DNA of 25,206 nt from a virus, in the IMG/VR virus record IMGVR_UViG_3300046535_000287, positions 1 through 25,206 of that record. One strand, 5' to 3'. Each line of letters starts with the position of its first letter. Position 1 is the stretch's first letter. A program made the translations under genes and the position numbers. A model generated the notes under the pieces. It was not told where the DNA came from. It did no database searches and saw only the letters and a program-made list of their open reading frames with translations. This document shows positions 1,358 to 24,123 of the stretch, piece after piece.

Positions 1358-2566
1358 GTGACGCCGCGCACATCCGGCGCGCCACACTGGCCTACCATCC
1401 TCGATTGCTCAGACAAAGGCCCACGTCCCAATCTCACCAACGCCGTGCGCGTGCTCCAGCACGATCCAACCCTTGGTGCGGAGACGATCTGGCGTGATGA
1501 TTTCCTTGATCGCGTGTTCGTGAAGAACTCGGCGCCGCGCGAATGGCGCGACGACGACGACACCCGGCTTGCGGTCTACATGCAAGACCACACCGGGCTC
1601 GTGAACATCCAAGAGCGCACGGTGGCAAGTGCGGTGCGCCTCGTCGCTCGACAGCGCGTGAAACATGTCGTGCGCGACTGGTTGACCGGGCTCGTCTGGG
1701 ACGAGGTGCCGCGCATCGCGCATGCCTTCGAGGATTTCTGGGGTGCCGCCGGCGACGACTACACGCGCGCGGCCAGCCGGAATTTCTTCATCGGCATGGC
1801 TGCTCGCATCCTCCGGCCAGGCTGTAAGCTCGACACGATGCCGGTGTTCGAGGGACCACAAGGCATCAGAAAATCCAGTGCGCTCCAAGTGCTCGGTGGC
1901 GAGTGGTATTCCGTGGCGCACGAATCAGTGAGTTCCAAAGATTTTCTTCAGGGCATGCGTGGAAAATGGCTCATTGAGATCGCTGAACTCCAGTCGTTCT
2001 CGCGCGCTGAAGTGAATGCGGTCAAGACGATGATGTCGTGTCAGGTCGACGATTACCGCCCGAGCTACGGCCGCCACGTCGTGAGTTTCCCGCGTCAGTG
2101 CGTGTTGGCCGGCACGACGAACAGCGTTGATTGGGGCACTGATGATACGGGTCTCCGGCGCTTCTGGCCGATTCGCTGCGGCGTCATTGACCTGGAGCGT
2201 CTCGCCCTCGCGCGTGAACAGCTCTTCGCCGAATCCTGTGCCGCGGTGCTTGCCGGCGGCCACTGGTGGGAGATGCCCGGACAGACCGCCGATATCCAAG
2301 CCGATCGCCAGTTTCAGGACGAGTGGACGAACGTCATCCTGCGGTGGGCCAAACTCCAACCTAGCGATGACGGCATCTCCGTCGCCGATGCCCTCCTCTC
2401 AGCCCTAAAAATCCCCCCCGACCGACACGACAAGAGCCTCCAAATGCGCGTCTCGAGCATTTTCCGGAAACAGGGGTGGGAACGGAAAAAGGTCCGCATC
2501 GGCACCGAAACGCGCTGGTTGTGGCTGAATAACCACGATGATACAGCGAAAGCGTCAATATTTTGA
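1358..2566 (+). CDS. VapE-like P-loop ATPase (virulence-associated E family, probable replicative helicase)
   Basis: This 402-residue protein has the layout of phage VapE-domain ATPases, which often act as DNA helicases, frequently fused to or beside a primase. An N-terminal region resembling KGPRPNLTNAVRVL leads to a Walker A-like loop GPQGIRKS (residues 166-173), a Walker B strand WLIEIAEL (204-211), a polar GTTN sensor (252-255) and an arginine-finger segment TGLRRFWPI (264-272). The sixth Walker A position is Arg rather than Gly. No primase domain is visible. The frame opens without an ATG; GTG at 1358 overlaps a short upstream stop (GTGA), but its ribosome site is poor and the true start is uncertain. 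A repeat-rich non-coding stretch follows directly, which fits a replication role. Confidence 0.85.
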   Translation: MTPRTSGAPHWPTILDCSDKGPRPNLTNAVRVLQHDPTLGAETIWRDDFLDRVFVKNSAPREWRDDDDTRLAVYMQDHTGLVNIQERTVASAVRLVARQRVKHVVRDWLTGLVWDEVPRIAHAFEDFWGAAGDDYTRAASRNFFIGMAARILRPGCKLDTMPVFEGPQGIRKSSALQVLGGEWYSVAHESVSSKDFLQGMRGKWLIEIAELQSFSRAEVNAVKTMMSCQVDDYRPSYGRHVVSFPRQCVLAGTTNSVDWGTDDTGLRRFWPIRCGVIDLERLALAREQLFAESCAAVLAGGHWWEMPGQTADIQADRQFQDEWTNVILRWAKLQPSDDGISVADALLSALKIPPDRHDKSLQMRVSSIFRKQGWERKKVRIGTETRWLWLNNHDDTAKASIF

Positions 2567-5104: not shown

Positions 5105-5320
5105 ATGGACGCGATTTCTAATCCCTCGAAACTGCGGCGCCTGTCTGAGCGCGTTGGCGCGCCGGTCATCGCCGCGTATGCGCGGTGGTTCGAGCCGCAA
5201 ACCACGATCTTGGTGTTCACGGATGCGAAAACCGCATGGGTTGTGCCGAGAGAGGGGTCGGTTGAGCGCTACGAGCGGGACGTTGAGTGGATTCCAGGTC
5301 GGGGAGTTCGGGTGAGATGA
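5105..5320 (+). CDS. 71-aa protein of unknown function
   Basis: This small protein sits directly before the terminase and its stop overlaps the TerL start as ATGA, so it is probably translationally coupled to it. The sequence alternates short strands (TTILVFTDAKTAWVVP) with charged turns and suggests a compact alpha/beta or beta domain. No ribosome site is obvious before the ATG. No known family is recognised. It could be a packaging accessory by position only. Confidence 0.6.
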   Translation: MDAISNPSKLRRLSERVGAPVIAAYARWFEPQTTILVFTDAKTAWVVPREGSVERYERDVEWIPGRGVRVR

Positions 5321-6795
5321 GCGCTCAGGCGCGATCACTCGATGAAGACCTCGCCGAGGTGTGCGCGGCTCTCGCGCTCGACCCGCTCGCCTGGGTGCAG
5401 TGGGCGTATCCGTGGCCGATCAACGGCGAGCCTGGCCCGGATGCGTGGCAGTGCCGATTTCTCGATGAACTCGGGCAGCGGTTGCGCGCGAATAAATTCG
5501 ATGGCATCGTGCCCGTGCCCCCGGTGCGGATGGGGGCGAGCACGGGCCACGGCGTTGGGAAGACCGCCCTTGTCGGCATGATCGTGAATTTCCTGATGTC
5601 GACGCGGCCGGACATGCGCGGGACCATCACGGCGAACACGAACGACCAACTCGAGAAGAAAACGTGGGCGGGTATCCGTGAGTGGACGGAGCGGTGCATC
5701 ACACGGCACTGGTTCGAGATCAACTCGCAGATCATGTATCGGCTTGGGGAGCGCGCGACGTGGTTCTGCGCGCCGGCCTCGTGCGCGGCTGAGAACTCCG
5801 AGGCGTTCGCCGGTCAGCACACGAAGTCTTCGACGTCGCTCTACGTGTTCGACGAAGCCAGCGCGATACCTGACAAAATCTGGGAGGTTGCGGAAGGTGG
5901 CTTAACGGACGGCGAGCCGATGATCTTCGCGTTTGGGAATCCGACGCGGAACACGGGGACGTTCTATTCGATTGCGTTCGGAGACCGGCGAGACCGATGG
6001 GCGATCACGTGTCTCGACTCGAGGGAAACGAAGTTTGCGAACAAGACGACGATTGCGGAATGGGAGCAGGATTATGGCGAAGACAGTGATTTCTTCCGTG
6101 TGCGCGTTCGAGGACTTCCTCCAAACGCAGACGAGCTGCAATTTATCGATGCGCTCCGAGTGGCTCAGGCTCAACGCGGCAGTGTCCAGCCTGTCGCCGG
6201 AGACCCACTCATTGCTGGAGTCGATGTGTCGGGTGGCGGCAAAGCGTGGTCTGTCTGCCGGTTTCGTCGTGGCACTGATGCGAGAAGTGTGCCTCCAATA
6301 CGACTCACCGGAGAGCAGACCGTGGCCCATGACCGGCAACTCCTGATTGCGAAACTCGCCGATGCGATGACCACGCATCAAGTCGACGCGATGTTCGTCG
6401 ACGCGGCGTTCGGGGCAGTGATTGTCTCTCGGCTGAGGCAGATGGGCTTCACGCAGGTGCATGAAGTGAACTTCGGCGGGCCGCCGAGTGATATGCTCTG
6501 CGCGAACATGCGCGCGTTCATGTGGAAATCGATGAAGGAATGGCTCCCGCGCGGGTGCATCGACATGAAAGACCAGCGGCTCGCGACAGACCTCACGGCG
6601 CCTGGCTTCCACCTGAACACGAAGAACCAACTCGTGCTCGAGTCGAAAGAATCGATGCAGAAGCGGAACGTCGCGAGCCCGGATGACGGCGACGCGCTCG
6701 CGCTGACGTTCGCGATGCCCGTGCGGCCGAAACAGACCGTCAGTCCTCCGGCACGGCCAGCCGTTCGTCATTCTCAGCAAGGATGGATGGGATAA
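5317..6795 (+). CDS. terL: Terminase large subunit
   Basis: This 492-residue protein is the motor and nuclease that packages DNA into the prohead. The ATPase half has Walker A GASTGHGVGKT (residues 73-83), Walker B LYVFDE (175-180) and a coupling segment FGNPTRNTG (206-214). The RNase H-like nuclease half shows Asp303 in GVDV, Asp362 in FVDAAFG and an acidic cluster at 456-459 (DDGD). Length is normal for the family. ATG 5317 overlaps the preceding stop; a GTG at 5287 in the same frame is less likely. Between about 6060 and 6340 codon choice changes to A/T-ending codons although the protein motifs are conserved there, which is unusual (see findings). Confidence 0.95.
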   Translation: MSAQARSLDEDLAEVCAALALDPLAWVQWAYPWPINGEPGPDAWQCRFLDELGQRLRANKFDGIVPVPPVRMGASTGHGVGKTALVGMIVNFLMSTRPDMRGTITANTNDQLEKKTWAGIREWTERCITRHWFEINSQIMYRLGERATWFCAPASCAAENSEAFAGQHTKSSTSLYVFDEASAIPDKIWEVAEGGLTDGEPMIFAFGNPTRNTGTFYSIAFGDRRDRWAITCLDSRETKFANKTTIAEWEQDYGEDSDFFRVRVRGLPPNADELQFIDALRVAQAQRGSVQPVAGDPLIAGVDVSGGGKAWSVCRFRRGTDARSVPPIRLTGEQTVAHDRQLLIAKLADAMTTHQVDAMFVDAAFGAVIVSRLRQMGFTQVHEVNFGGPPSDMLCANMRAFMWKSMKEWLPRGCIDMKDQRLATDLTAPGFHLNTKNQLVLESKESMQKRNVASPDDGDALALTFAMPVRPKQTVSPPARPAVRHSQQGWMG

Positions 6796-6798
6796 ACC

Positions 6799-7398
6799 AT
6801 GAGTTTTCCGTATTACGCACAGGTGCAGCGCTCGCACAGCGAACTGATGGCGAGCGGGCAGATTCAGCGCCGGGACAATCAGGAAGCGGTCGAGCACGAC
6901 AAGGGGCTCCAGACGCGGCGGGCCGGCTACTACGCGAACCAGCTCGACTCGACGATCGGGATTCTCGAGAAGACCAGCGGGAATAACGCGCTCGGGTATT
7001 CGGTCGACCTGCTGATTACGCGCGCTGGCGTGTTCTGGGACGTGGCGACCGACAGCAACGGGCTGGCGATGCCAGTCGATGGCGAGACGCGCGGGCCGGA
7101 TGCCGAGTTGGCGCTGAAGTGGCGGCAGCCCACGGCGGAACTCGCTGGCCTGACCGATATCCCGGTGCCAGTGCCGCCGGGCGAGGTGATTCCCTACGAC
7201 GAGGCGAAATCGGTGGAATTCGGGATGGCGTGCAACGAGGTGTATACCGAGAGCGGCGCGCCGATCGATCCGGGAATGATCTCGGTGCAATCGCAGCGGT
7301 GCGCGTATGATTATTACGTGATGGGCGAACCATGGGATGCCTGTCTCGAGAAGCACGTCAACGAACTCCGGGCGATCTACGGGTTGCCGCCGGTATGA
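6799..7398 (+). CDS. Protein of unknown function between terminase and portal
   Basis: This 199-residue protein has a charged helical N-terminus (residues 1-45), a middle domain starting near SGNNALGYSVDLLITRAGVF that reads as beta strands, a WDVATDSNG segment, a proline-rich link (IPVPVPPGEV) and a helical C-terminus with cysteines and aromatic residues. The middle part resembles a small domain seen as part of other phage proteins, but I cannot assign a role. It starts 3 nt after terL and overlaps the next gene by four bases, so it belongs to the same transcript. Confidence 0.72.
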   Translation: MSFPYYAQVQRSHSELMASGQIQRRDNQEAVEHDKGLQTRRAGYYANQLDSTIGILEKTSGNNALGYSVDLLITRAGVFWDVATDSNGLAMPVDGETRGPDAELALKWRQPTAELAGLTDIPVPVPPGEVIPYDEAKSVEFGMACNEVYTESGAPIDPGMISVQSQRCAYDYYVMGEPWDACLEKHVNELRAIYGLPPV

Positions 7399-7637
7399 CT
7401 GAGATTCGCGGGAACGCGAAATACGCCGATGACCAAATCTCGATGAAGTGGGGCGAGATCGAGACGATGTGGGAACGAATGCGCGGTCGTGGCTGGCGCG
7501 AAGACCAGCGCGAGCGATTCCTTGAGGATGTGCGTCGCTGTCTAGCTCAGGGCTTACCACTGGAGTATTTCGACGAGCACCTGAGCGAATCGCAGCGCCG
7601 TTGCACGAATTGGTACCTGGCCAGCGAGTCGACTTGA
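7395..7637 (+). CDS. 80-aa protein of unknown function
   Basis: The ATG at 7395 overlaps the previous stop (ATGA). The product is strongly charged and helical, with aromatic residues (KWGEIETMWERMRGRGWRED and a DEHLSESQRR segment) and two cysteines. No family is recognised. An upstream in-frame ATG at 7332 would run far into the previous gene and is less likely. A promoter-like -35 box begins inside its stop region and points to the following genes. Confidence 0.6.
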   Translation: MTEIRGNAKYADDQISMKWGEIETMWERMRGRGWREDQRERFLEDVRRCLAQGLPLEYFDEHLSESQRRCTNWYLASEST

Positions 7638-7664
7638 CGTATCCGCTATGAGTAGTGATAGACT
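7634..7664 (+). promoter_or_regulatory. Promoter candidate before the 29-aa gene
   Basis: TTGACG at 7634-7639 matches five of six -35 bases. Downstream, GATAGA (7657-7662, 17-bp spacer) or TAGACT (7659-7664, 19-bp spacer) could serve as a -10. Neither -10 is strong. The GATAGnnTCTC surround resembles the reverse promoter at 1171-1199. Confidence 0.35.
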
Positions 7665-7681
7665 CTCGCCGGAGGCCAGCC

Positions 7682-7771
7682 ATGACCACTGCTGAACGTG
7701 AAGCGATCTATCGGGAAGCCTTGGCGCAGATGCGCGCAGAACGAGCGGCTGAGCGCGCGAAAGCGGCGTGA
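7682..7771 (+). CDS. 29-aa charged microprotein
   Basis: This tiny frame has a very good ribosome site (GGAGG at 7671-7675, 6 nt before the ATG), follows a promoter-like sequence and ends in TGATG, sharing one base with the next start. The product is a single charged helix rich in Ala, Arg and Glu. Its first residues, MTTAEREAIYR, match the start of the 153-aa protein encoded at 8025 (MTDAEREAMYR). It may be a functional small protein, a leader that couples translation, or a relic of a duplicated gene start. Confidence 0.5.
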   Translation: MTTAEREAIYREALAQMRAERAAERAKAA

Positions 7772-8025
7772 TGGTCGACATCGAGGAATCGGCCCTTGAC
7801 ACAGCCGGTGATGGGCTGTATCGCGTCTGCCGCGATGGTCATCCCGTCGAAGAGACGCATGAGGCAATTTTTGTAGCGACCACTGGCGAGTGGGAGTTCA
7901 ATCAGCGTGTGTATCTTGTGGCGCGTGTGCGCGATCCAAAGCCTGACGAGTCGTATCCTGACATGACTGTGCGGGCAGATGGGAAAGCGTTGTTTCGGCA
8001 GTTCTATCCGGTGGATAAAACGTGA
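7771..8025 (+). CDS. 84-aa protein of unknown function
   Basis: The ATG at 7771 shares a base with the stop of the 29-aa frame and the stop shares a base with the next start, so it sits in a tight coupled chain. The product is acidic at the N-terminus, then mostly beta-like (EAIFVATTGEWEFNQRVYLV), suggesting a small globular domain. I recognise no family. Codon choice is slightly less GC-biased than in the portal gene that follows. Confidence 0.6.
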   Translation: MVDIEESALDTAGDGLYRVCRDGHPVEETHEAIFVATTGEWEFNQRVYLVARVRDPKPDESYPDMTVRADGKALFRQFYPVDKT

Positions 8026-8486
8026 TGACCGACGCTGAGCGCGAAGCGATGTACCGCACGGTGTCCATGCCGGACACACCAGCGATGACCGCCTCGCGTC
8101 TGCCGGATGTCGTCAACAACGGCTATGCCACGCGCAAAGAGCGCGAAGCCTCCGATGCGCTGATGATGATCATGCGGGCATACGAGCGCAACCGGCCGCT
8201 CCTCCTCACGATCGTGGTCGATGGCATCCGCGAGTGGCGCCGCGTGGCGCGTCCGCAGTTCCGTCCGTTCGGTGTGACCGACGAGAAGATCGATGAGATG
8301 TTCAGCACGTTCGTCGCGTGGGCTGGCGTGAATCCGGCGATGCAGTTGTTGCAACTGCAAGGCGTGGAGCAGATCGCGAAAACCACGCTATGGGACCGCC
8401 GGGAGCGCACGCAGCGCAGCCTGATTGAAGGCTTGCGCGCCGCGAAGAAAGAACTCCGAGCCGAGCAGCGTAAGCGCGGGCACTGA
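8025..8486 (+). CDS. 153-aa helical protein upstream of portal
   Basis: This protein starts with MTDAEREAMYR, shared with the 29-aa frame upstream. The rest is mainly helical: a RKEREASDALMMIMRAYERN block, a hydrophobic helix (PLLLTIVVDGIREW) and a very basic C-terminal tail (AAKKELRAEQRKRG) that could bind nucleic acid. Both ends overlap neighbours by one base. No known family is recognised; position directly before portal would suit a packaging or head-assembly accessory. ATG 8025 is preferred over GTG 8022. Confidence 0.68.
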   Translation: MTDAEREAMYRTVSMPDTPAMTASRLPDVVNNGYATRKEREASDALMMIMRAYERNRPLLLTIVVDGIREWRRVARPQFRPFGVTDEKIDEMFSTFVAWAGVNPAMQLLQLQGVEQIAKTTLWDRRERTQRSLIEGLRAAKKELRAEQRKRGH

Positions 8487-10831
8487 TGGCCCGTTCCACA
8501 CCGTCCCCTGTCGGCACCGACCCGATCATCATCGAGGCGCGCGAGCGCTGGCAGCGCTGCGACGAGGCCGAGCAGGAGCAGCGGAAGCGCATCCTGGCCG
8601 CGAAGCAGTTCCGGGCGGGCGACCAATGGGACACAGACATCCGCGCGGCGCGCGAGGGCAAGAATGCGCTCCAAGGGGTCGGCGCGCAGCCACCACGCCC
8701 GTGCCTCACCATTGATAGGCTTTCTCAGCCCGTCAGGCAAGTCTCGAATCAGGTCAAGACCGCGAATTTCGCGATCGACGTCTCTCCGAATGGGCATGGG
8801 GCCGATGACGACACTGCTGAAATTATCAAAGGTTACCTCCGGCGAATTCAAAATCAAGCGCGTGATGAGTCCCCAATTGAGTGGGCCGCAGACGGTGCAA
8901 TTGAGGGCGGCCTTGGATGGTTTAGGCTTCGCACCGATTACGTTGACAACGATCCAGGTCCAGATGCCGGTATCGAAGCGTTCGATCAAGAACCACGCCT
9001 TGAGCGCATCACGAATTCGCTGAGTGTCTACTGCGATCCGAGTGCCTGCACGCCGACGCGGAAGGATGCGCGGTTCATGTTCGTGACGGAGGACATGCCG
9101 CGCGACGAATACGAGCGGCAGTTCGGCGAGGAAGACGCGCGGAGCCTCGACGACTTCGAGAGCACGGGCGATCCGGTCTGTAAAGGGTGGGTCTCGAAGG
9201 ACAACGTGCGCGTGGCCGAATACTGGCGCGTGACATTCGTCGATGAGAAGTGGATCGCGCTGCCGGACGGCTCGATTGAGCAGGTGAAAGAGTTTCCGAA
9301 GGACGGCTTCGACGCCAAGCGTGTGATCCGCCGGCCGAAAGTGGAAGGCTACAAGATCAACGCCGTTCGCATCCTCGAAGAACTGCCGTGGGTGGGCTCG
9401 CGAATTCCGCTATTCCCGGTGCTCGGTGAGGAACTGAACGTTGACGGGAAGATCGTGTTGCGCGGGATGATCGGAGAGAGCATGGACGCGCAACGCATGG
9501 TGAACTGGACGTATAGCGAGGGGATCTCAATCCTCTCTCTGGCCACGAAGTCCGACATGATCGTTCCGGCTGAAGCCGTGAACGGTTACGAAGATATTTG
9601 GCGGACGCGGAACGTCTACAACCATTCCCACCTTCCCTATAACCAATACGATCCATCCGGGCGCGCACTTGAGAAGCCGCATCGCGAGCAGGGCGAACCG
9701 GCGAACCTGCAAGCCGCTGTGCAGTTGATGCAGGTCTCCGAAGAAGGCGTGAAGTTTCAGACTGGCGTGTTCGATCCGTCACTCGGAAACACGAACCCGA
9801 AAGAGCGCTCAGGCCGGGCGATTCAGGCCCTTCAAGGCCAGTCAGACCTCTCGAATAGCAACTACGGATCCGGTGTGCAGCGCGCGCTCATCGACGTGGG
9901 GAACGCGATCGTCGAAATCCTGCCGAAGATCACTCGGAAAGGACAGACGTTGCATATCCTCGGGCTGGATGACAAGCCCGAGAAAGTCATTGCGGGCCAG
10001 CACTTCACGACGCAGCAGGGCGAGCCGGTGCCGATTTCGCCAGACGAAGCGGCGCAGATGCAACCCGGCATGGCGCAGTTCTACGACCTGTCGAAAGGGC
10101 GCTACGCCGTGACGGTGAAGGTCGGAAAGGCGAACGCGACGAAGCGCGAAGAAGGCGCGGCCGCGCTCGGCGAACTCATCCCGCATCTGCCGCCGGAGAT
10201 GGCCGCTGTCGCCACGCCGGACTACGTGGAACAACTCGACTTCGAGGGCTCGCATCAGATCGCGGAGAAACTCCGGAACGCGCTGCCACCGCAGCTCCAA
10301 GAGCAGCCGGAGGACGATCAGGTGCCGCCGGCGCTGAAGGCGCACATCCAGCAACTCACGGCACAGCTCGAGCAGGCGAAACAGTTGATTGCGACTGACG
10401 GCGCGAAAGAGCAGGCCAAGCAGCAAACCGCCGTCCAGAAAGCGCAACTCGACGCGCAGGTTGAGCAGTCGCGGCAGCAGTTCGAGCGCGAGATTCACGC
10501 GATGGACAACGCGGCTCGGATTGAAATCGCGCGGATCTCGGCGAAGGCGCAGCACGCGGATACCGTGGCCGGGATGGCTGAAGAAGCCATTGCGCTCGAC
10601 CACGAAGCGGTGCAGAATCAGCACGACCGGGTGCATGATGTCGTGATGGGGCAGCAAGCGCATGCACAAGCGCTCGCACAGGGGCAGGCTGGCGTGGCCG
10701 GCGATGCGGCACTCGCGGAGCAGGGTCATGAGCAAGCACTGGAGCAGGGTGCCGCCGGGCATGCACAGGCGCTTCAGCAGAACGAGCAGGCCGCCGCGTT
10801 GGCGCCGGAACCGGCTGGAGAGGGCGAATAA
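8486..10831 (+). CDS. P22-like portal protein
   Basis: This 781-residue protein is the portal, the dodecameric ring at one vertex through which DNA enters and leaves the head. The N-terminal half carries the family pattern (FRAGDQWD near residue 42; PCLTIDRL near 71; a VYCDPSA segment; then PLFPVLGEEL and QRMVNWTYSEG), as in P22 gp1-type portals. The C-terminal part, from about residue 600, is a long Gln/Ala-rich coiled coil ending in an acidic tail, comparable to the P22 portal barrel. Length is a little above P22 gp1. It starts at TGATG and ends at TAATG. A patch at about 8710-9005 has unusual A/T-ending codons. Confidence 0.93.
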   Translation: MARSTPSPVGTDPIIIEARERWQRCDEAEQEQRKRILAAKQFRAGDQWDTDIRAAREGKNALQGVGAQPPRPCLTIDRLSQPVRQVSNQVKTANFAIDVSPNGHGADDDTAEIIKGYLRRIQNQARDESPIEWAADGAIEGGLGWFRLRTDYVDNDPGPDAGIEAFDQEPRLERITNSLSVYCDPSACTPTRKDARFMFVTEDMPRDEYERQFGEEDARSLDDFESTGDPVCKGWVSKDNVRVAEYWRVTFVDEKWIALPDGSIEQVKEFPKDGFDAKRVIRRPKVEGYKINAVRILEELPWVGSRIPLFPVLGEELNVDGKIVLRGMIGESMDAQRMVNWTYSEGISILSLATKSDMIVPAEAVNGYEDIWRTRNVYNHSHLPYNQYDPSGRALEKPHREQGEPANLQAAVQLMQVSEEGVKFQTGVFDPSLGNTNPKERSGRAIQALQGQSDLSNSNYGSGVQRALIDVGNAIVEILPKITRKGQTLHILGLDDKPEKVIAGQHFTTQQGEPVPISPDEAAQMQPGMAQFYDLSKGRYAVTVKVGKANATKREEGAAALGELIPHLPPEMAAVATPDYVEQLDFEGSHQIAEKLRNALPPQLQEQPEDDQVPPALKAHIQQLTAQLEQAKQLIATDGAKEQAKQQTAVQKAQLDAQVEQSRQQFEREIHAMDNAARIEIARISAKAQHADTVAGMAEEAIALDHEAVQNQHDRVHDVVMGQQAHAQALAQGQAGVAGDAALAEQGHEQALEQGAAGHAQALQQNEQAAALAPEPAGEGE

Positions 10832-11163
10832 TGCAACTTGATCTGGGCGGCATCAAGTTGGATGTATACTTACACGACGTTGAACCGCATGCGCGGATCA
10901 TTGGCCTGTTGAATCAACTCGTGACCCAAGGAGAGACGATGGCGAAGAAACTCGACGATGTGAACGCGCGACTGGACGACCTGATTGCCTCGGTGACGGG
11001 TGTCTCCGGCGACGTGACCGCACTCAAGAAGGAAATCGAAGACCTGAAGAACGCGGCTGTCGGCGCGACTCCGGAGCAGGTCGACGCGCTGTTCACGCGG
11101 ATCGACGGCATCGCGACGCAGCTCTCCGCGCTCGACGCGGCCACGCCACCTCCGGCGGTGTGA
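10831..11163 (+). CDS. Small coiled-coil protein with a possible internal start
   Basis: This 110-residue protein has an N-terminal part (LDLGGIKLDVYLHDVEPHAR) followed by a long helical coiled-coil region (KKLDDVNARLDDLIASV and onwards) and a proline-rich tail. The first ATG has GGAGAGGG 6 nt upstream and overlaps the portal stop. An in-frame ATG at 10939 (codon 37) has an even better ribosome site, AAGGAG, 5 nt before it, so a 74-residue short form is plausible. Many phages have such a small helical protein next to the portal. The function is unknown. Confidence 0.7.
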   Translation: MQLDLGGIKLDVYLHDVEPHARIIGLLNQLVTQGETMAKKLDDVNARLDDLIASVTGVSGDVTALKKEIEDLKNAAVGATPEQVDALFTRIDGIATQLSALDAATPPPAV

Positions 11164-11254
11164 TGTCGACATGACGCACGACTATGGATTCGTCGTATTC
11201 ATAAAGAGGATACGAAAGAAGCCTTGGATAGTCGCTGTTGGAGCTAATAGGGAT
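11164..11254. other. AT-richer leader of unclear role
   Basis: This 91-bp stretch is clearly less GC-rich than its surroundings, with runs such as CATAAAGAGGATACGAAAG. It contains a small imperfect inverted repeat (CGTATT ... GATACG) and a TTGGAT ... TAATAG pair with a 15-bp spacer, too close to the ATG to be a normal promoter. It may be a control region for the DUF6496-like and Acb2-like genes, or the N-terminal coding part of the former. Confidence 0.3.
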
Positions 11255-11458
11255 ATGCCAACTACCATCGCAGGCGTCATGCGAGAATACGGCGCCGGAG
11301 AACTCCACAGCGGCTCGTCGACCGGGCCGAAGGTGCGGAACCGCAAGCAAGCCGTGGCGATTGCGCTGAGCGAACAGCGGCAGCAGGGCAAGCCGGTGGC
11401 ACCGAAGGTGAACCATCCGCATCGCAACCTCGGGAAGTTTCTGCACAAGGCGAAATGA
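11255..11458 (+). CDS. DUF6496-like small basic protein
   Basis: The 67-residue product has a pattern I know from DUF6496: VMREY followed by GELHSGSSTGPKV and a KQAVAIALSEQR segment, then a basic tail ending HKAK. These proteins are common in phages, and their role is unknown. I choose ATG 11255 because the family begins here and because the preceding open stretch (in frame from ATG 11171) uses codons unlike its neighbours. If 11171 were used, the protein would have 95 residues with a basic N-terminal extension. Neither start has a strong ribosome site. Confidence 0.72.
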   Translation: MPTTIAGVMREYGAGELHSGSSTGPKVRNRKQAVAIALSEQRQQGKPVAPKVNHPHRNLGKFLHKAK

Positions 11459-11463
11459 GCGAA

Positions 11464-11481
11464 GCCTTCTAAAACGAAGGC
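11464..11481. repeat. Short perfect hairpin before the Acb2-like gene
   Basis: GCCTTC (11464-11469) and GAAGGC (11476-11481) form a 6-bp stem with a TAAAAC loop. It lies 14 nt before the next ATG, so it could shape translation start. No T-run follows, so it is not a usual terminator. Confidence 0.4.
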
Positions 11482-11494
11482 GGAAAGAGAGTTT

Positions 11495-11719
11495 ATGCCA
11501 CCGACGTTGAGAGAAAAACTTGATGACATCTTTCGCTATCACGCCCCGTCGTCAGATGACACGGTTGCCTACGAAAAACTCCGAGCGTCGGCGAAGGACT
11601 TCGCGAAAGCGATCATCGATCTGACGCCGGCTTGCGCCGATCAGACTGCCGCTGTGCGGCTGGTTCGAGAGGCTGTGATGACGGCCAATTCAGCCATTGC
11701 GCTCAAGGGGCTCGTGTAA
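11495..11719 (+). CDS. acb2: Acb2-like anti-CBASS cyclic-nucleotide sponge
   Basis: This 74-residue protein fits the small helical Acb2/Tad1 hairpin family. The visible pattern is FRYHAP (residues 13-18), Tyr26, a YEKLRASAKDFAKAI helix, a TPACADQ turn and the closing helix VREAVMTANSAIAL, close to the family's A-x-M-x-A-N-x-A-I-A ending. Known Acb2 proteins form hexamers that bind cyclic di- and trinucleotides and so block CBASS, and in some cases related signalling defences. Here the family match rests on pattern memory, not on a search, and activity is inferred. It lies between the DUF6496-like gene and scaffold, which suggests expression with the capsid genes. The upstream GGAAAGAGAG is a moderate ribosome site. 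Confidence 0.75.
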   Translation: MPPTLREKLDDIFRYHAPSSDDTVAYEKLRASAKDFAKAIIDLTPACADQTAAVRLVREAVMTANSAIALKGLV

Positions 11720-11725
11720 GACGCT

Positions 11726-12652
11726 ATGAGCGAAGACATCAATCCATCGGCGGTCTCGGTTGAGCGCGACGGGCGTATCCTGTCGGGTGGTCCCGGCACG
11801 GACGTCGCGGCGCTCGAACGCACGATGGATCGGCATGCGCCAGAGACTTCGGAAGCCACGCCGGAGTCAGGCGCCACGCCCGCGACGGATCGACCTGACT
11901 CCTCTCAGCCAGAACCGCGCGGGCGTGCTCGGTTCACGAAACTGACCGGCGAGCGTGACGAAGCGAAGAAAGCCGCCGATGCTGCGACGCAGCGAGCGGC
12001 GGACCTCGAAGCGCGACTGGCGGCTATCGAAGCACGTCAGCAACAGGTTCGCGAGACGAAGCCAGAACCGGCACCTGTTCCTCGCCAGCCCGAGCCACAG
12101 ACTGATGAAGAACGTCTTGAGGCGCGCATTCGCACTGCGGCACGCGAAGAAGCGCGGCGAGAGTTCGAGGAAAAAGAAGCCTCGCGCGCGATGAACGACC
12201 GCATGTTCACGATGCGGACCTCGGCGCGTGAAATCTATCCTGATTTCGATACCGTGTTGAAAGATGGGCCAGGGGCCAAGATTCCTCTGGCGGCGGACGA
12301 CCAGATCGGCGCAGAGCGCGTCAACATGCTCGTGCACTTGGAGGGTGGGCAGCACGCGCTGTATCACATCTCGAAGGATGCGGCACTCGCGCAGCGCTTG
12401 TCTCAGATGTCTGACCGTGAGTTCGGGTTCGCAATCGCTCGCCTCCTTCCTGCGGATGCGTCTGTCGTTTCACCGGCCTCGACAGGCATTCCTCGTGCGG
12501 TGACGGCTCCTCCTCCCTATCAGCCGGTAGGGTCGGGTAGCAAGACGACGGCGCTTCCGTCCTCCGCACTAGTTTCTAAGGCTGGCTTCGACTTCGACAA
12601 GTCAGGCTACCGCGAAAAGCGTGCGGCGGAACGGGGGGTGCGCCGTAGGTAG
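11726..12652 (+). CDS. Scaffolding protein
   Basis: This 308-residue protein lies between the portal group and the coat gene, the position of P22 gp8, and has a similar length. The first 75 residues are acidic and disordered, followed by a long coiled coil (KLTGERDEAKKAADAATQRA and onwards, residues about 72-115), a charged helical region and a compact middle domain (EIYPDFDTVLKDG). The end, FDFDKSGYREKRAAERGVRR, is a short basic helical segment like the coat-binding tail of P22-type scaffolds. It drives prohead assembly and leaves before or during packaging. Assignment rests on position, composition and the C-terminal pattern. Confidence 0.85.
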   Translation: MSEDINPSAVSVERDGRILSGGPGTDVAALERTMDRHAPETSEATPESGATPATDRPDSSQPEPRGRARFTKLTGERDEAKKAADAATQRAADLEARLAAIEARQQQVRETKPEPAPVPRQPEPQTDEERLEARIRTAAREEARREFEEKEASRAMNDRMFTMRTSAREIYPDFDTVLKDGPGAKIPLAADDQIGAERVNMLVHLEGGQHALYHISKDAALAQRLSQMSDREFGFAIARLLPADASVVSPASTGIPRAVTAPPPYQPVGSGSKTTALPSSALVSKAGFDFDKSGYREKRAAERGVRRR

Positions 12653-12658
12653 TCCTGC

Positions 12659-13897
12659 ATGGCGAATACATTTCTCACGAACGACATCGTCACCTACGAG
12701 GCCCTCGATGTGCTGGAGAACACCGACGCGGTGCTCATGCACATCAACAGCGAATACTCCAACGACTTCGAGTTCGGCGGCGCGGTGCTCGGGCAAACGC
12801 TCAGCATCAGGAAACCCCCAAGATACATCGGCCGTCTCGGTCAGGCGGCACAGATCGAAGCCATCACTGAAACATTCGTCCCGTTGACGCTGTCGTATCA
12901 GCGCGGCGTTGATACGCAGGTCAGTTCACAGAATCTCATCCTCGATATCGACGACTACCGCAAGCGGATTCTCGAGCCGCAGATCGTGCGGTTGTCGAAT
13001 CTCACCGATCAGGACGTCTGCAACCTGGCGCAAGGGTTGAATCAGTTCGTGGGCACGCCCGGCACCACGCCGACGACGCTCACGACCTACCTCAACGCGA
13101 AGACGAAGCTCGACAACCTGGCGGCGCCGGCTGACCGGAACCGATTCGTGTTCCTGAATCCGGCGGCGGACAACACGCTCGTCGACAACCTGAAGGGGCT
13201 GTTCCAGGCGAGCGCGGAGATCGCCGAGCAATACACGATGGGCTCGATGCGTCGTGCGGCCGGCTTCCGGTGGGAGATGGACCAGAACATCTACGTCCAC
13301 ACCGTTGGGACGCTTGGCGGCACGCCGACTGTCACGACCGTGCCGACCTCCGGCGCGTCCACCATCGTGACCGGCTCATGGACATCGACCACGCTGAACG
13401 CGGGCGATGTCGTGTCGTTCGTCTCGACGTCGACGCCGGTCAACTGGGTGAATCCGCAGTCGTACTCGAGCACGGGCCAGACGGCGCAATTCGTCGTGAT
13501 GGCGACCACGACTGATAGCGGCGGGTCCATCACGATTCCCATCGGACCGGCGATCATCGGTCCAGGTTCGCAGCTCCAGAACGTGACGAATCTGCCGGCA
13601 ACGTCGACGCCGGTCTTTGTGTTCGACACGGCCGCCGCGTCGTTCTCGACGATCACAGGCAAGGTGTCGCCGCAGAACATGGCGGTTCACAAGGACTTCG
13701 GCACGATCGCGATGGTCGACATGCCGCTGCCGGCCGGGACCGATAAGGCGTATCGCGCCGCATCGAAGAAGTCGGGCAAGTCGATTCGGGTCATCCGCGA
13801 TTACGTCGCGACATCAGATCAGTGGATTCAACGCCTCGATCTTCTGTACGGCACAGCGGTGCTGCGGCAGGAACTCGGTGTGCGGGTGGGAGGGTAA
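12659..13897 (+). CDS. Major capsid (coat) protein, P22 gp5-like
   Basis: This 412-residue protein resembles P22 coat (430 residues). It starts MANTFLTNDIVTYEALDVLE and continues with IRKPPRYIGR, a TLSYQRGVDTQVSSQ segment, IDDYRKRILEP and a hydrophobic core ending in YVATSDQWIQRLDLLYGTAV. Residues about 220-325 are Thr/Ser-rich beta sequence inserted into the fold (VTGSWTSTTLNAGDVVSFVS), matching the place of the P22 I-domain, which stabilises the HK97-fold subunit. It forms the icosahedral shell around the scaffold core. It starts 6 nt after scaffold; GTAGG upstream is a weak to moderate ribosome site. Confidence 0.93.
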   Translation: MANTFLTNDIVTYEALDVLENTDAVLMHINSEYSNDFEFGGAVLGQTLSIRKPPRYIGRLGQAAQIEAITETFVPLTLSYQRGVDTQVSSQNLILDIDDYRKRILEPQIVRLSNLTDQDVCNLAQGLNQFVGTPGTTPTTLTTYLNAKTKLDNLAAPADRNRFVFLNPAADNTLVDNLKGLFQASAEIAEQYTMGSMRRAAGFRWEMDQNIYVHTVGTLGGTPTVTTVPTSGASTIVTGSWTSTTLNAGDVVSFVSTSTPVNWVNPQSYSSTGQTAQFVVMATTTDSGGSITIPIGPAIIGPGSQLQNVTNLPATSTPVFVFDTAAASFSTITGKVSPQNMAVHKDFGTIAMVDMPLPAGTDKAYRAASKKSGKSIRVIRDYVATSDQWIQRLDLLYGTAVLRQELGVRVGG

Positions 13898-20563: not shown

Positions 20564-21674
20564 TCCCTTCTCTGAGCCCGGCTCAGATGCCACCTTCGAT
20601 CTGAGCCTCTGGAGCGGCACGGGCGGGACTGTCTCAAGCACCACGGCGCAGTTCCATACCGGCACCCATTCCATCGAAGTGCTGTCGACGTCTACTGGCA
20701 ACTTCAATCGGCATGGCTGTCTCGCCGATGCCGGGCGCCGCGTCTCGTTCTGGCTTCGGTTCGATACGGTGCCCGCGTCGACCGATGCGATCTTCTGCTC
20801 GCTCGCCAGCAGCGGCGGTGCGGCCGATATCATCCTGCTCTACATCACGAGTGCTGGCAAGGTGAAGAACGGTCCGGTTGGCGCAACAGCCGTGACAGGC
20901 ACGGCGGTGCTCGCCGTGAACACGTGGTATCAGATTTGTGCGTGCTACAGCATCACGAACACCACGACGTATTCGTGCAAGATCTATGTCAACGGCGTAC
21001 TGGACTCGACTACGAACGCGGGGACACTCACCGGCACGGGCACGGCCGATCTGTATCTGGCCTGCGATGCTAACTTCGGCACAACGAAAAAGTGTTGGTT
21101 TGACGACATCTATATCGATGACACGTCAGATGGTTCGTATCCCGGCGCGGTGCTCGTTACCTACAAGCGCCCGAACGCGAACGGCACCACGAACGGCTTT
21201 ACGACGCAGATCGGGTCAGGCGGCAGCGGCTACGGCACTGGACATTCACCGCAGGTCAATGAACAGCCACTCAGCCAGACGAACGGCTGGTCGATGGTCG
21301 GGGCAGGGTCGGCGGTCACGGAAGAATACAACGTCGAAGGATCGACGGTCGGTGAAGTGAACCTGACGGGCGCGACGATCAAGAGCGTGATGGGGTGGGT
21401 CTTCGCGAAAGCCCTCGCGAACGAAACCGCGTCGATCGTGGTCGATGGCACGTCCTCGGCGGTGGTTCCGCTCACAAGCACACCGCTCGCGTTTGTGAAG
21501 GAATCACCGAACCCCACGGCACTGCCGGCTGGCACCGGAAAGGATATCGGGCTCGTGACAACAACGGCGCTCACGACGGTCAGCCTTTACGAGTGCGGGA
21601 TCGTGGTGGCCTACACGGCGGCGGCAAGCACAGTGATCAATCGACGGTTGGCACTGCTCGGAGTCGGCCCGTAA
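20556..21674 (+). CDS. LamG/concanavalin-like lectin-domain virion protein
   Basis: The first ~200 of 372 residues read as a laminin-G or concanavalin-like sandwich: a FHTGTHSIEVLS strand, RRVSFWLRFDTVPAS, a NTWYQICACYSI strand and the CKIYVNGVLDST strand, closed by CWFDDIYIDD. Such domains bind glycans and would suit recognition of capsular or surface sugars. The C-terminal part is another beta region (EYNVEGSTVGEVNLTGATIK and VSLYECGIVVAYTA). It overlaps the stops on both sides. Cell-surface binding is the likely job but is inferred. Confidence 0.7.
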   Translation: MASPFSEPGSDATFDLSLWSGTGGTVSSTTAQFHTGTHSIEVLSTSTGNFNRHGCLADAGRRVSFWLRFDTVPASTDAIFCSLASSGGAADIILLYITSAGKVKNGPVGATAVTGTAVLAVNTWYQICACYSITNTTTYSCKIYVNGVLDSTTNAGTLTGTGTADLYLACDANFGTTKKCWFDDIYIDDTSDGSYPGAVLVTYKRPNANGTTNGFTTQIGSGGSGYGTGHSPQVNEQPLSQTNGWSMVGAGSAVTEEYNVEGSTVGEVNLTGATIKSVMGWVFAKALANETASIVVDGTSSAVVPLTSTPLAFVKESPNPTALPAGTGKDIGLVTTTALTTVSLYECGIVVAYTAAASTVINRRLALLGVGP

Positions 21675-22843
21675 TGCCCCGCAAGCCGATCCCCTCGTTC
21701 GTCGGCCCGTCGAACGTCTCCGCGTCGATGACCGCGGACCCGGAAGAGAGCATCAATTTCTTCATGGAGACGGTTGCGCCTGGGGCTGCGAAGGTCTCGA
21801 ATCCTTACCTCCGAGGCACGGCTGGGCTCCGTCCGTGGGTGCATCTCCCGACGTCTCCCGTCACGGCGCTGTTCTTCTCGCCGGCCACGCTCGACCGGGC
21901 GTTCGCGATTGCCGGTGGCGTCTTCTACGAAGTGTTCCCGACCACGCCAGCCACGTTCGCGGCCTACTCGCCGAATCTCGCGACGAACGTTTACATGCCG
22001 TCGATCTGCTCGAATGGCACGGCCGGATTCCAACTGTTTATCACGTCCGGCGACAAGGGCTACATCTTCGACCTCGGCGCGAACACGCTCAGCCAGATCA
22101 CCGACTCCGGATTCCCGGCGCGTGTCAGGATGGGCGAGTTCATGGACGGGTATTTCTTCGCGCTCGTCACGGAGACGCGGAAGTTCCAAATCTCCGCGCT
22201 CGAGGACGGCACGAGTTGGGATGCGCTCGACGTGGCCGAGCGGTCGGAAGCGAGCGACGACATCAACGCCTTGATTCGGAACCATCGCGTGATTGCACTG
22301 CTCGGGCGGAAGACCTCCGAGTTCTGGTATGACAGCGGCGATCCCAATTTCCCCTTCGCGCCGACCCAGGGCGAATTCATGGAATCCGGCTGCGTGGCGC
22401 CGTTCTCCGCGCGACGGCTCGAAAATACGCTGTTCTGGCTCGGGCAGAACGACGACGGGCAGGGGCTCGTCTGGGCGCTCGATGGCGTGGCGCCGAAGAT
22501 TGTCAGCACGCCCGCCATCTCCCGACTGATTCAGGGCTCTGGGAACGTGCTGACCGGCATTTCGTCGCATGATCTGCGGCTGTCGGTGGCGTTCGCGTAT
22601 CAGGAAGACTCGCACCGCTACTACTGCCTCCAGGTGCCAAACTGTCAGTGGATGTTGGTCTATGACCTCCTGACCGACCGTTGGCACAAGCGGGCGCAGT
22701 GGAACTCAACCGCGCTGACGTGGCTTCAGGGCCGTCCGCAGTGTCACATGTTCTTCGCGGGGCGGCATCTGGTTGGCGATCGGCTCACCGGCACGATTTA
22801 CGAGATGTCGCTCGACTACTTCGATGAAGAATTGAACGCCTGA
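21674..22843 (+). CDS. P22 gp10-like packaged DNA stabilisation protein (main part)
   Basis: This 389-residue protein has the typical opening (PIPSFVGPSN, then ESINFFMETV), a series of beta-propeller-like blades (AFAIAGGVFYEVF, QLFITSGDKGYIFDLG, GYFFALVTETRKFQIS) and conserved pieces such as DPNFPFAPTQGEFMESGC. It ends at GTIYEMSLDYFDEE. P22 gp10 closes the tail channel and keeps packaged DNA inside. The family usually continues past this point with a further beta region; here that part is encoded at the end of the next gene. ATG 21674 shares a base with the previous stop. Confidence 0.87.
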   Translation: MPRKPIPSFVGPSNVSASMTADPEESINFFMETVAPGAAKVSNPYLRGTAGLRPWVHLPTSPVTALFFSPATLDRAFAIAGGVFYEVFPTTPATFAAYSPNLATNVYMPSICSNGTAGFQLFITSGDKGYIFDLGANTLSQITDSGFPARVRMGEFMDGYFFALVTETRKFQISALEDGTSWDALDVAERSEASDDINALIRNHRVIALLGRKTSEFWYDSGDPNFPFAPTQGEFMESGCVAPFSARRLENTLFWLGQNDDGQGLVWALDGVAPKIVSTPAISRLIQGSGNVLTGISSHDLRLSVAFAYQEDSHRYYCLQVPNCQWMLVYDLLTDRWHKRAQWNSTALTWLQGRPQCHMFFAGRHLVGDRLTGTIYEMSLDYFDEELNA

Positions 22844-24123
22844 TGTCTGTTATCTTCTCGTATGACTTCGACGCGGGCCAGACGACGTTCAACTCGGACT
22901 GGACGAACAGCGGCGTGACGCTCTCCACTGGTGGCGTCGTGCCGAGCGGGTATTGCGTGGCGTGTTCGGCAGGCACGGCGTATCATGGGTTCACGCCCAC
23001 CGCGACGATCAGCCTTCGCGCGCAAGAAGCGATCATCTTGCCTCCGGCCACGTCGGCCAGCCTTGAACAGTTGTTTATAGGTGTCGCTCACAGCGGAACG
23101 CCGAACTTCTATGCATACTATCTAGGCTCTGACAATCTCGGGCGCTTCTATATTCGATGGAATAACGTCTTGAGCCCGGTCTATTCCTCGGCTGGTGTGG
23201 CGCCGATTGATGGGACGTGGTATGCCGTGCAGTGGAGGCTCAGCCAACTGACATCGACTACGGTATCCGTGGCTGTTGATGTCAACAACACGACGGTGTG
23301 GACAACGACATGGGACCAGGATAGCTTAGGATTTCTCGGGGCAGACACATCCAACACATTTTCAACACTGTTTATCCACCCTAATCAACTCACGATAGCC
23401 AACCAGTTATCTGCTACGGACAAGATCGAAGTCGACAACAGTAACGCGAAAATCACATGGTCGCTCGCGTCGAGCAACACGATGACGCAGTTGTTGACGC
23501 CCTCGCCGACACTCGCCGTCACTGGCATGGCCGTCACTGGCGGCGGGTCCACGCTGACACTCACCGGCACGTTCCGGCCGCCCGTGTTGGCGTATGTGCA
23601 ACTCGATGGCGTCTATACGGCGTTCACGGTGGTGTCGGCCTCGACGACCACGATCGTGCTCACGTTCTCTCCCGCGATTGCGACCACGAACGTGTGTGCG
23701 AAGGTCTATTCTCAGCTCTGTTGGGAAACCACGGCCGTCCCTCCACCCACGACGTTCTGCACGACCGCTCCGCCTGTCACCGTCACGTATCCGACGGTGC
23801 GTGAGCGCGTGTTCGTCCTGCCGTTCGAGACCAACCTGATGCTGTTCCTGAACCGGATCGAGTTTCTGGTGCAGGCTGGAGAGGGGCTCGTGACCGGGCA
23901 GGGCAGTGACCCGACGATGGAAGTCCGTTTCTCGCGCGATGGCGGGAAGACCTACGGGAACGCATTTCTTGTGAAACCTGGGAAGATCGGCGAATATGAC
24001 ACACGCAGTTACATCAACCGGCTCGGGAGGGCTCGGAATTGGGTGTGCAAGGTGCGGGTGAGTGACCCCGTGTTTTGGGCGCTGCTCGACTGCTACGCGG
24101 ATATGGAGGAAGGCACATCATGA
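22843..24123 (+). CDS. Lectin-like module fused to the gp10-like C-terminal domain
   Basis: The first ~310 of 426 residues are beta-rich: a DFDAGQTTFNSDWTNSG opening, a YAYYLGSDNLGRFYIRW strand pair and a later Ig-like part (STLTLTGTFRPPVLAYVQLD). This resembles a carbohydrate-binding sandwich. Residues 315-426 match the end of gp10-type proteins: a FLNRIEFLVQAGEGLVTGQG piece, EVRFSRDGGKTYGN, KIGEYDTRSYINRLGRARN and SDPVFWALLDCYAD. So this gene appears to complete the previous protein, with a lectin-like insert between. DNA from about 23030 to 23470 is less GC-rich than its surroundings, which suggests a recent insert. It starts at TGATG. Confidence 0.72.
   Translation: MSVIFSYDFDAGQTTFNSDWTNSGVTLSTGGVVPSGYCVACSAGTAYHGFTPTATISLRAQEAIILPPATSASLEQLFIGVAHSGTPNFYAYYLGSDNLGRFYIRWNNVLSPVYSSAGVAPIDGTWYAVQWRLSQLTSTTVSVAVDVNNTTVWTTTWDQDSLGFLGADTSNTFSTLFIHPNQLTIANQLSATDKIEVDNSNAKITWSLASSNTMTQLLTPSPTLAVTGMAVTGGGSTLTLTGTFRPPVLAYVQLDGVYTAFTVVSASTTTIVLTFSPAIATTNVCAKVYSQLCWETTAVPPPTTFCTTAPPVTVTYPTVRERVFVLPFETNLMLFLNRIEFLVQAGEGLVTGQGSDPTMEVRFSRDGGKTYGNAFLVKPGKIGEYDTRSYINRLGRARNWVCKVRVSDPVFWALLDCYADMEEGTS

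Follow-up and report, generated by a model that had tools for sequence, protein, structure and literature searches.

An Acb2-family hairpin protein of an uncultured phage belongs to a clade with a fixed exchange at a putative pocket position

A 74-residue protein encoded next to the head genes of an uncultured, soil-type phage belongs to the Acb2 hairpin family and, as judged from aligned sequences, to a distinct and newly recognised clade in which one residue, at a site that affects binding in T4 Acb2, is uniformly exchanged. We consider it likely that this acb2-like protein is a cyclic-oligonucleotide sponge of the Acb2 family, from a clade whose ligand pocket has been remodelled. The DNA analysed, called the window below, is an entire IMG/VR virus record, 25,206 bases long, and its genes indicate a P22-type podovirus. 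Acb2 has been called relatively rare and group-restricted (PMC11722364); short-pattern scans of IMG/VR returned at least 223 relatives of the acb2-like protein and at least 449 relatives of a second, T-type group, two counts that may overlap, suggesting that hairpin sponges are common among uncultured phages. With the fixed change from Thr to Arg, what determines sponge specificity can be probed concretely at a single residue.

Family membership and predicted fold

The open reading frame of the preliminary description, with its FRYHAP start and AVMTANSAIA end, is present where it had been placed (Table 1); the two motifs occupy residues 13–18 and 60–69, and no other in-frame start codon was found upstream of 11495. 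The same description had assigned the protein to the Acb2/Tad1 family and proposed a profile search as a check. Indeed, the Pfam model PF24729 (Acb2_Tad1_hairpin) matches residues 15–69 with 32.6 bits (E 9e-8), above its curated cut-off of 27 bits, and the protein genuinely belongs to the Acb2 hairpin family. T4 Vs.4, the PaMx33-type Acb2 sequence and the 'Acb2 homolog 43' of PDB entry 9PTQ pass the model too, and all 50 sampled viral records with relatives exceed its cut-off. Two PHROG families also match, 31113 (1.2e-14) and 1454 (1.3e-10), both annotated 'unknown function'. Comparison with the 82% identical copy in another phage record, L002, gave a dN/dS of ~0.07 (dN 0.146; dS 2.25, near saturation), showing that the frame is under purifying selection.

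Table 1 Features of the window, with the acb2-like gene and its neighbours
Feature	Position	Strand	Evidence or remark
Helicase	1358–2566		
Terminase large subunit	5287–6795		
P22-type portal protein	8486–10831	+	PF16510, E 6.5e-124; left border of variable slot
Coiled-coil 110-aa protein	10831–11163	+	sub-threshold coiled-coil Pfam matches only
AT-rich segment (~44% GC) before DUF6496 start	11164–11254		composition
DUF6496 gene	11255–11458	+	PF20106, 48.2 bits (cut-off 24)
acb2-like gene, 74 aa	11495–11719	+	ATG start; hairpin domain at residues 15–69
Head scaffolding protein	11726–12652	+	phrog_8865, E 1.4e-10
P22-type major coat protein	12659–13897	+	PF11651, E 4e-26; phrog_283, E 5e-54

An AlphaFold monomer model built with 77 relatives (pLDDT 95.9) predicts helices at residues 5–12, 20–43 and 48–69, forming a short N-terminal helix followed by a two-helix antiparallel hairpin, all helical and with no beta domain. 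The Acb2 protomer has been described as a short helix and a two-helix hairpin (PMC12043709). Tad1 (Thoeris anti-defence 1) has the C-terminal hairpin model PF24729 in common with our protein, whereas its N-terminal beta-sheet domain has no counterpart in the all-helical 74 residues.

Among predicted viral structures, the best BFVD matches of the model are annotated 'Acb2/Tad1 hairpin domain-containing protein' (E 1.3e-4, TM 0.84). Against solved structures, the VIA comparison ranked T4 Vs.4 (7UQ2) first with Z 6.5 and Acb2 (8H2X) third with Z 6.0, scores tied with those of unrelated helical hairpins; since a Z of ~6 does not separate Acb2 from such hairpins, we do not base our case on the fold search. 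A Foldseek search of the model against the PDB gave no match at E <1, and PDB sequence searches with a single sequence and with 7 sequences did not find Acb2. The best solved chain for a 79-sequence profile searched against PDB sequences was 9PTQ, a weak match (E 0.085). Among proteins from crAss-like phages, the 'cargo protein 1 compact domain' weakly resembles the hairpin (BFVD A0A7M1RXU8 and A0A7M1RXZ2; probability 0.75 and 0.60, both E >1).

Putative pocket residues and a distinct clade

Residue equivalences were taken from the Pfam profile and a gap-free C-terminal alignment. Y15 aligns with T4 Y8 (PaMx33 Y11), the residue whose mutation Y8A makes T4 Acb2 binding-deficient (PMC12657230; PMC12657218); 74 of 77 relatives also have Tyr there. 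R55 aligns with T4 T68 (PaMx33 T74), where T68M lowers binding in T4 Acb2 (PMC12657230); Arg stands here in all 77 aligned relatives, and Thr in the studied Acb2 proteins (T4, PaMx33 and 9PTQ) and in 74 of 74 members of the T-type set. A69 takes the place of T4 F82, which stacks on the bound dinucleotide (PMC12657218); this change appears to be tolerated, because PaMx33 Acb2, which binds, also has Ala there. Invariant in the alignment of 77 relatives are D49, R58, E59 and N65. Fifteen positions past the Tyr, R30 aligns with T4 K23 (PaMx33 K26) and is basic in 75 of 77 relatives; we take K23/K26 to be a dinucleotide-pocket residue of Acb2.

Loss of ligand-pocket residues had been named beforehand as an outcome that would speak against the assignment. 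What we found is divided: the Tyr and the basic R30 are kept, which favours the family, and T68 is replaced by R55, which does not. Thr at T4 position 68 is no formal criterion of the Acb2 family, however, and its replacement marks a variant. Since this position is Arg throughout the clade, ligand specificity cannot be transferred from known Acb2 proteins.

Comparison with the characterised proteins, T4 Vs.4 (7UQ2) and the PaMx33-type 'p26' (8H2J/8IXZ), shows the same Pfam domain, an alike predicted helix and hairpin, and an equivalent of Y8/Y11 plus a basic residue at Y15/R30. The acb2-like protein differs from both in lacking ~20 residues of the hairpin tip, in having R55 at T68/T74 and in having A48, not Arg, at the R67 equivalent. 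9PTQ aligns collinearly and gap-free over 60 residues and has the same short hairpin; it carries Thr at the R55 position and REK where our protein has ADQ.

The clade is large, mostly environmental and marked by the signature ADQTAAxRxxREaVMTANaaIA, against RExSLALTxLExAMxWANAAIAR in T-type proteins, which occur in Paenibacillus, Gordonia and Mycobacterium phages and on many IMG/VR contigs and share the F-x-Y-H-x-P start, P45, N65 and the IA ending with our protein. Relative to the T-type set (74 relatives retrieved using T-type Acb2 sequences), the swaps are A48 for R48, D49 for E49, R55 for T55, R58 for E58 and T63 for W63. The search patterns partly dictated residues 58–65 in this clade, as they did T55 and W63 in the T-type set; R55 and D49 lay outside the pattern constraint, and both are present in 9 relatives retrieved by an N-terminal pattern alone. 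A tree built without the five diagnostic columns still sets all sampled clade members apart by a branch supported at 94/93, although with 54 columns its finer branching is unreliable. A protein of the Acidobacteria phage Tunturi_1 groups with the clade, and T4, PaMx33 and 9PTQ fall outside. Isolated phages nearly lack the clade, with a handful of similar isolate records, and we know of no experimentally studied protein from it.

A portal–scaffold slot of variable content

As described earlier, the acb2-like gene sits between a DUF6496 gene and the scaffold gene, with the coat gene following (Table 1). Its start lies 36 nt past the DUF6496 stop, and its stop lies 6 nt before the scaffold ATG. 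No promoter-like site was found in 10700–12800 and no plus-strand terminator-like site between the acb2-like and scaffold genes; minus-strand ones were near shuffle expectation. The 6-nt gap and the lack of an intervening promoter-like or plus-strand terminator-like site make co-transcription with the head genes likely. No tRNA was found in the window.

The PF20106 match of the DUF6496 gene begins at residue 31 of a longer frame open from 11171; its start is probably the ATG at 11255, as the homologue in a related phage (L102) starts at the same Met. The compositionally odd segment noted previously does exist (43.7% GC over 11171–11257 vs 61.7% for the window), but it belongs to the DUF6496 leader, ~240 bp before the acb2-like gene and not just upstream of it. 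At 11164–11254, L102 instead has a different small ORF, and the AT-rich segment could represent either a leader or inserted DNA. Further downstream, the Hc3 head closure profile (phrog_578) is matched at 21395–24123 by two adjacent ORFs, the first covering profile positions 5–364 and the second, in its C-terminal part, 378–472; the gene looks split or interrupted by an insert of ~330 aa, because in record L091 a distance of ~408 codons separates the corresponding parts, as expected within one protein.

Relatives were retrieved by coat protein and by portal, and the DNA between portal and scaffold ranges among them from ~0 (L105, L158) to ~3.7 kb (L141). The nearest relatives (portal 66–71%, coat 87% identity) keep the 110-aa coiled-coil gene (tblastn 58–62% in L099–L102 and L107), and L102 keeps the DUF6496 gene; none has an acb2-like gene in its portal-scaffold slot. 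L002 has the order seen here, namely portal, DUF6496-like, acb2-like and scaffold, with identities of 82–85% for the acb2-like protein, 56–60% for the portal, 75% for the coat and 42–53% for the scaffold. The more distant L091, a contig of an Acidobacteria metagenome-assembled genome (MAG), runs portal, acb2-like gene and a weakly scaffold-like gene. Beyond this phage, L002 and L091, no other portal or coat relative examined has an acb2-like gene in the slot, and the L023 and L024 copies instead precede the helicase and terminase genes. Among ~70 relatives retrieved by the acb2-like protein alone, the two upstream ORFs include a portal in at least five and a terminase in at least four, and a T-type relative in Gordonia phage ChisanaKitsune directly follows the portal gene. 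The acb2-like gene is thus accessory cargo that rides recurrently, though not always, with packaging and head genes. The proposed tie to the structural transcript is therefore plausible here by the 6-nt gap, but the capsid-block placement is not a conserved arrangement, as the closest relatives lack the gene there.

By eye, the slot in related phages (L141 at 7334–11029, L124, L157, L167 and others) holds diverse cargo, including large ORFs of 443, 476 and 646 aa, a PAP2-phosphatase-like ORF, HNH-like ORFs and secreted-looking proteins; a DUF6496-like gene often adjoins the scaffold.

Proposed function, alternatives and defence associations

Our structural model suggests a protomer made of a two-helix hairpin and a short N-terminal helix. 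By analogy with Acb2, such protomers would assemble into a hexamer and bind cyclic di- and/or trinucleotides at their interfaces, without cleaving them, and this sequestration would starve CBASS-type effectors of their signal. The aligned residues point to a remodelled pocket, with Arg55 for the family Thr, Arg58 for Glu and no Arg at 48, so the protein may bind a ligand other than those of T4 or PaMx33 Acb2. Its gene, an accessory one in the portal-scaffold slot, would probably be translated from the head-gene transcript. Such cargo would place the sponge on the capsid-protein transcript; escape from CBASS has been connected with capsid genes (PMC10419184), and the major head protein triggers Thoeris (PMC12043709).

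In favour of a sponge we counted the PF24729 pass, the BFVD matches, the ranks of 7UQ2 and 8H2X, Y15, the dN/dS and a Tad2-like neighbour in record L008; against it, the changes from T68 to R55 and from F82 to A69, the weak 9PTQ match, the Foldseek null result and the VIA Z of ~6. A refinement of the sponge explanation, compatible with it and which we hold tentatively, is that the Acb2 fold is kept and specificity has shifted, Arg55 and Arg58 selecting a signal that known Acb2 proteins do not bind, such as a nucleotide of the Thoeris type, a ring of larger size, or any ligand except the Panoptes decoy 2',3'-c-di-AMP. The strict division between Arg (77/77) and Thr (74/74) at the T68M position and the cohesion of the clade without its diagnostic columns would fit such a shift, and it has been proposed that phages might adjust Acb2 so as to avoid Panoptes ligands (PMC12657218). 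Retention of Y15 and of the basic residue of the dinucleotide pocket argues the other way, and the Thr-to-Arg exchange could also be a compensated structural change. That the whole ADQTAAxRxxRE clade is a large unrecognised sponge branch, its Arg55/Arg58 pocket capturing different immune signals, for instance to avoid Panoptes-like guards, is more speculative still, and we regard it as rather unlikely.

The location of the gene could instead reflect a small head-morphogenesis accessory, its hairpin an oligomeric scaffold part with no anti-defence role, given its position between portal and scaffold here, in L002 and in L091, and the recurrence of portal or terminase upstream in other relatives. 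We find this improbable, since the slot lacks the gene in all other portal and coat relatives examined, heads evidently assemble without it, the copy in L023 and L024 sits elsewhere, and the ligand-binding Tyr is conserved. Shortness, a single domain and a PF24729 score below those of most relatives might also suggest a decayed, non-functional Acb2 relic; the intact frame, the dN/dS of ~0.07 and an identity to L002 exceeding that of portal and scaffold make this a very improbable reading.

The preliminary description had taken the gene as a hint of CBASS, or a comparable cyclic-nucleotide defence, in the host group; the one CD-NTase cluster seen is in the MAG of L091. SMODS cyclases occur in one of 11 assemblies holding relatives, with no SMODS match in the other ten, and no enrichment is shown. 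The exception is the L091 assembly, where three tandem SMODS nucleotidyltransferase matches lie within 2.6 kb (L280–L283); the two that were scanned score as CBASS cyclases in PADLOC. Because binning may be wrong, we treat this CD-NTase cluster in L091's MAG as a lead only. A weak PADLOC match, PDC-M14B (E 0.0012), was discarded. No Tad2-like gene was found in the window; Tad2-like genes were rejected as general companions, occurring in only one of 50 records. In that record (L008, contig 5694–7259), the Tad2-like gene lies ~1.1 kb from the acb2-like gene on the same strand, and the two possibly form an anti-defence pair.

The 11 relatives in bacterial and archaeal assemblies include Acidobacteriota, Planctomycetota, Geobacteraceae, Myxococcales and a Methanoregulaceae archaeon bin. 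The contig in this last bin (L093) carries an acb2-like gene of the clade, possibly an archaeal-virus sponge.
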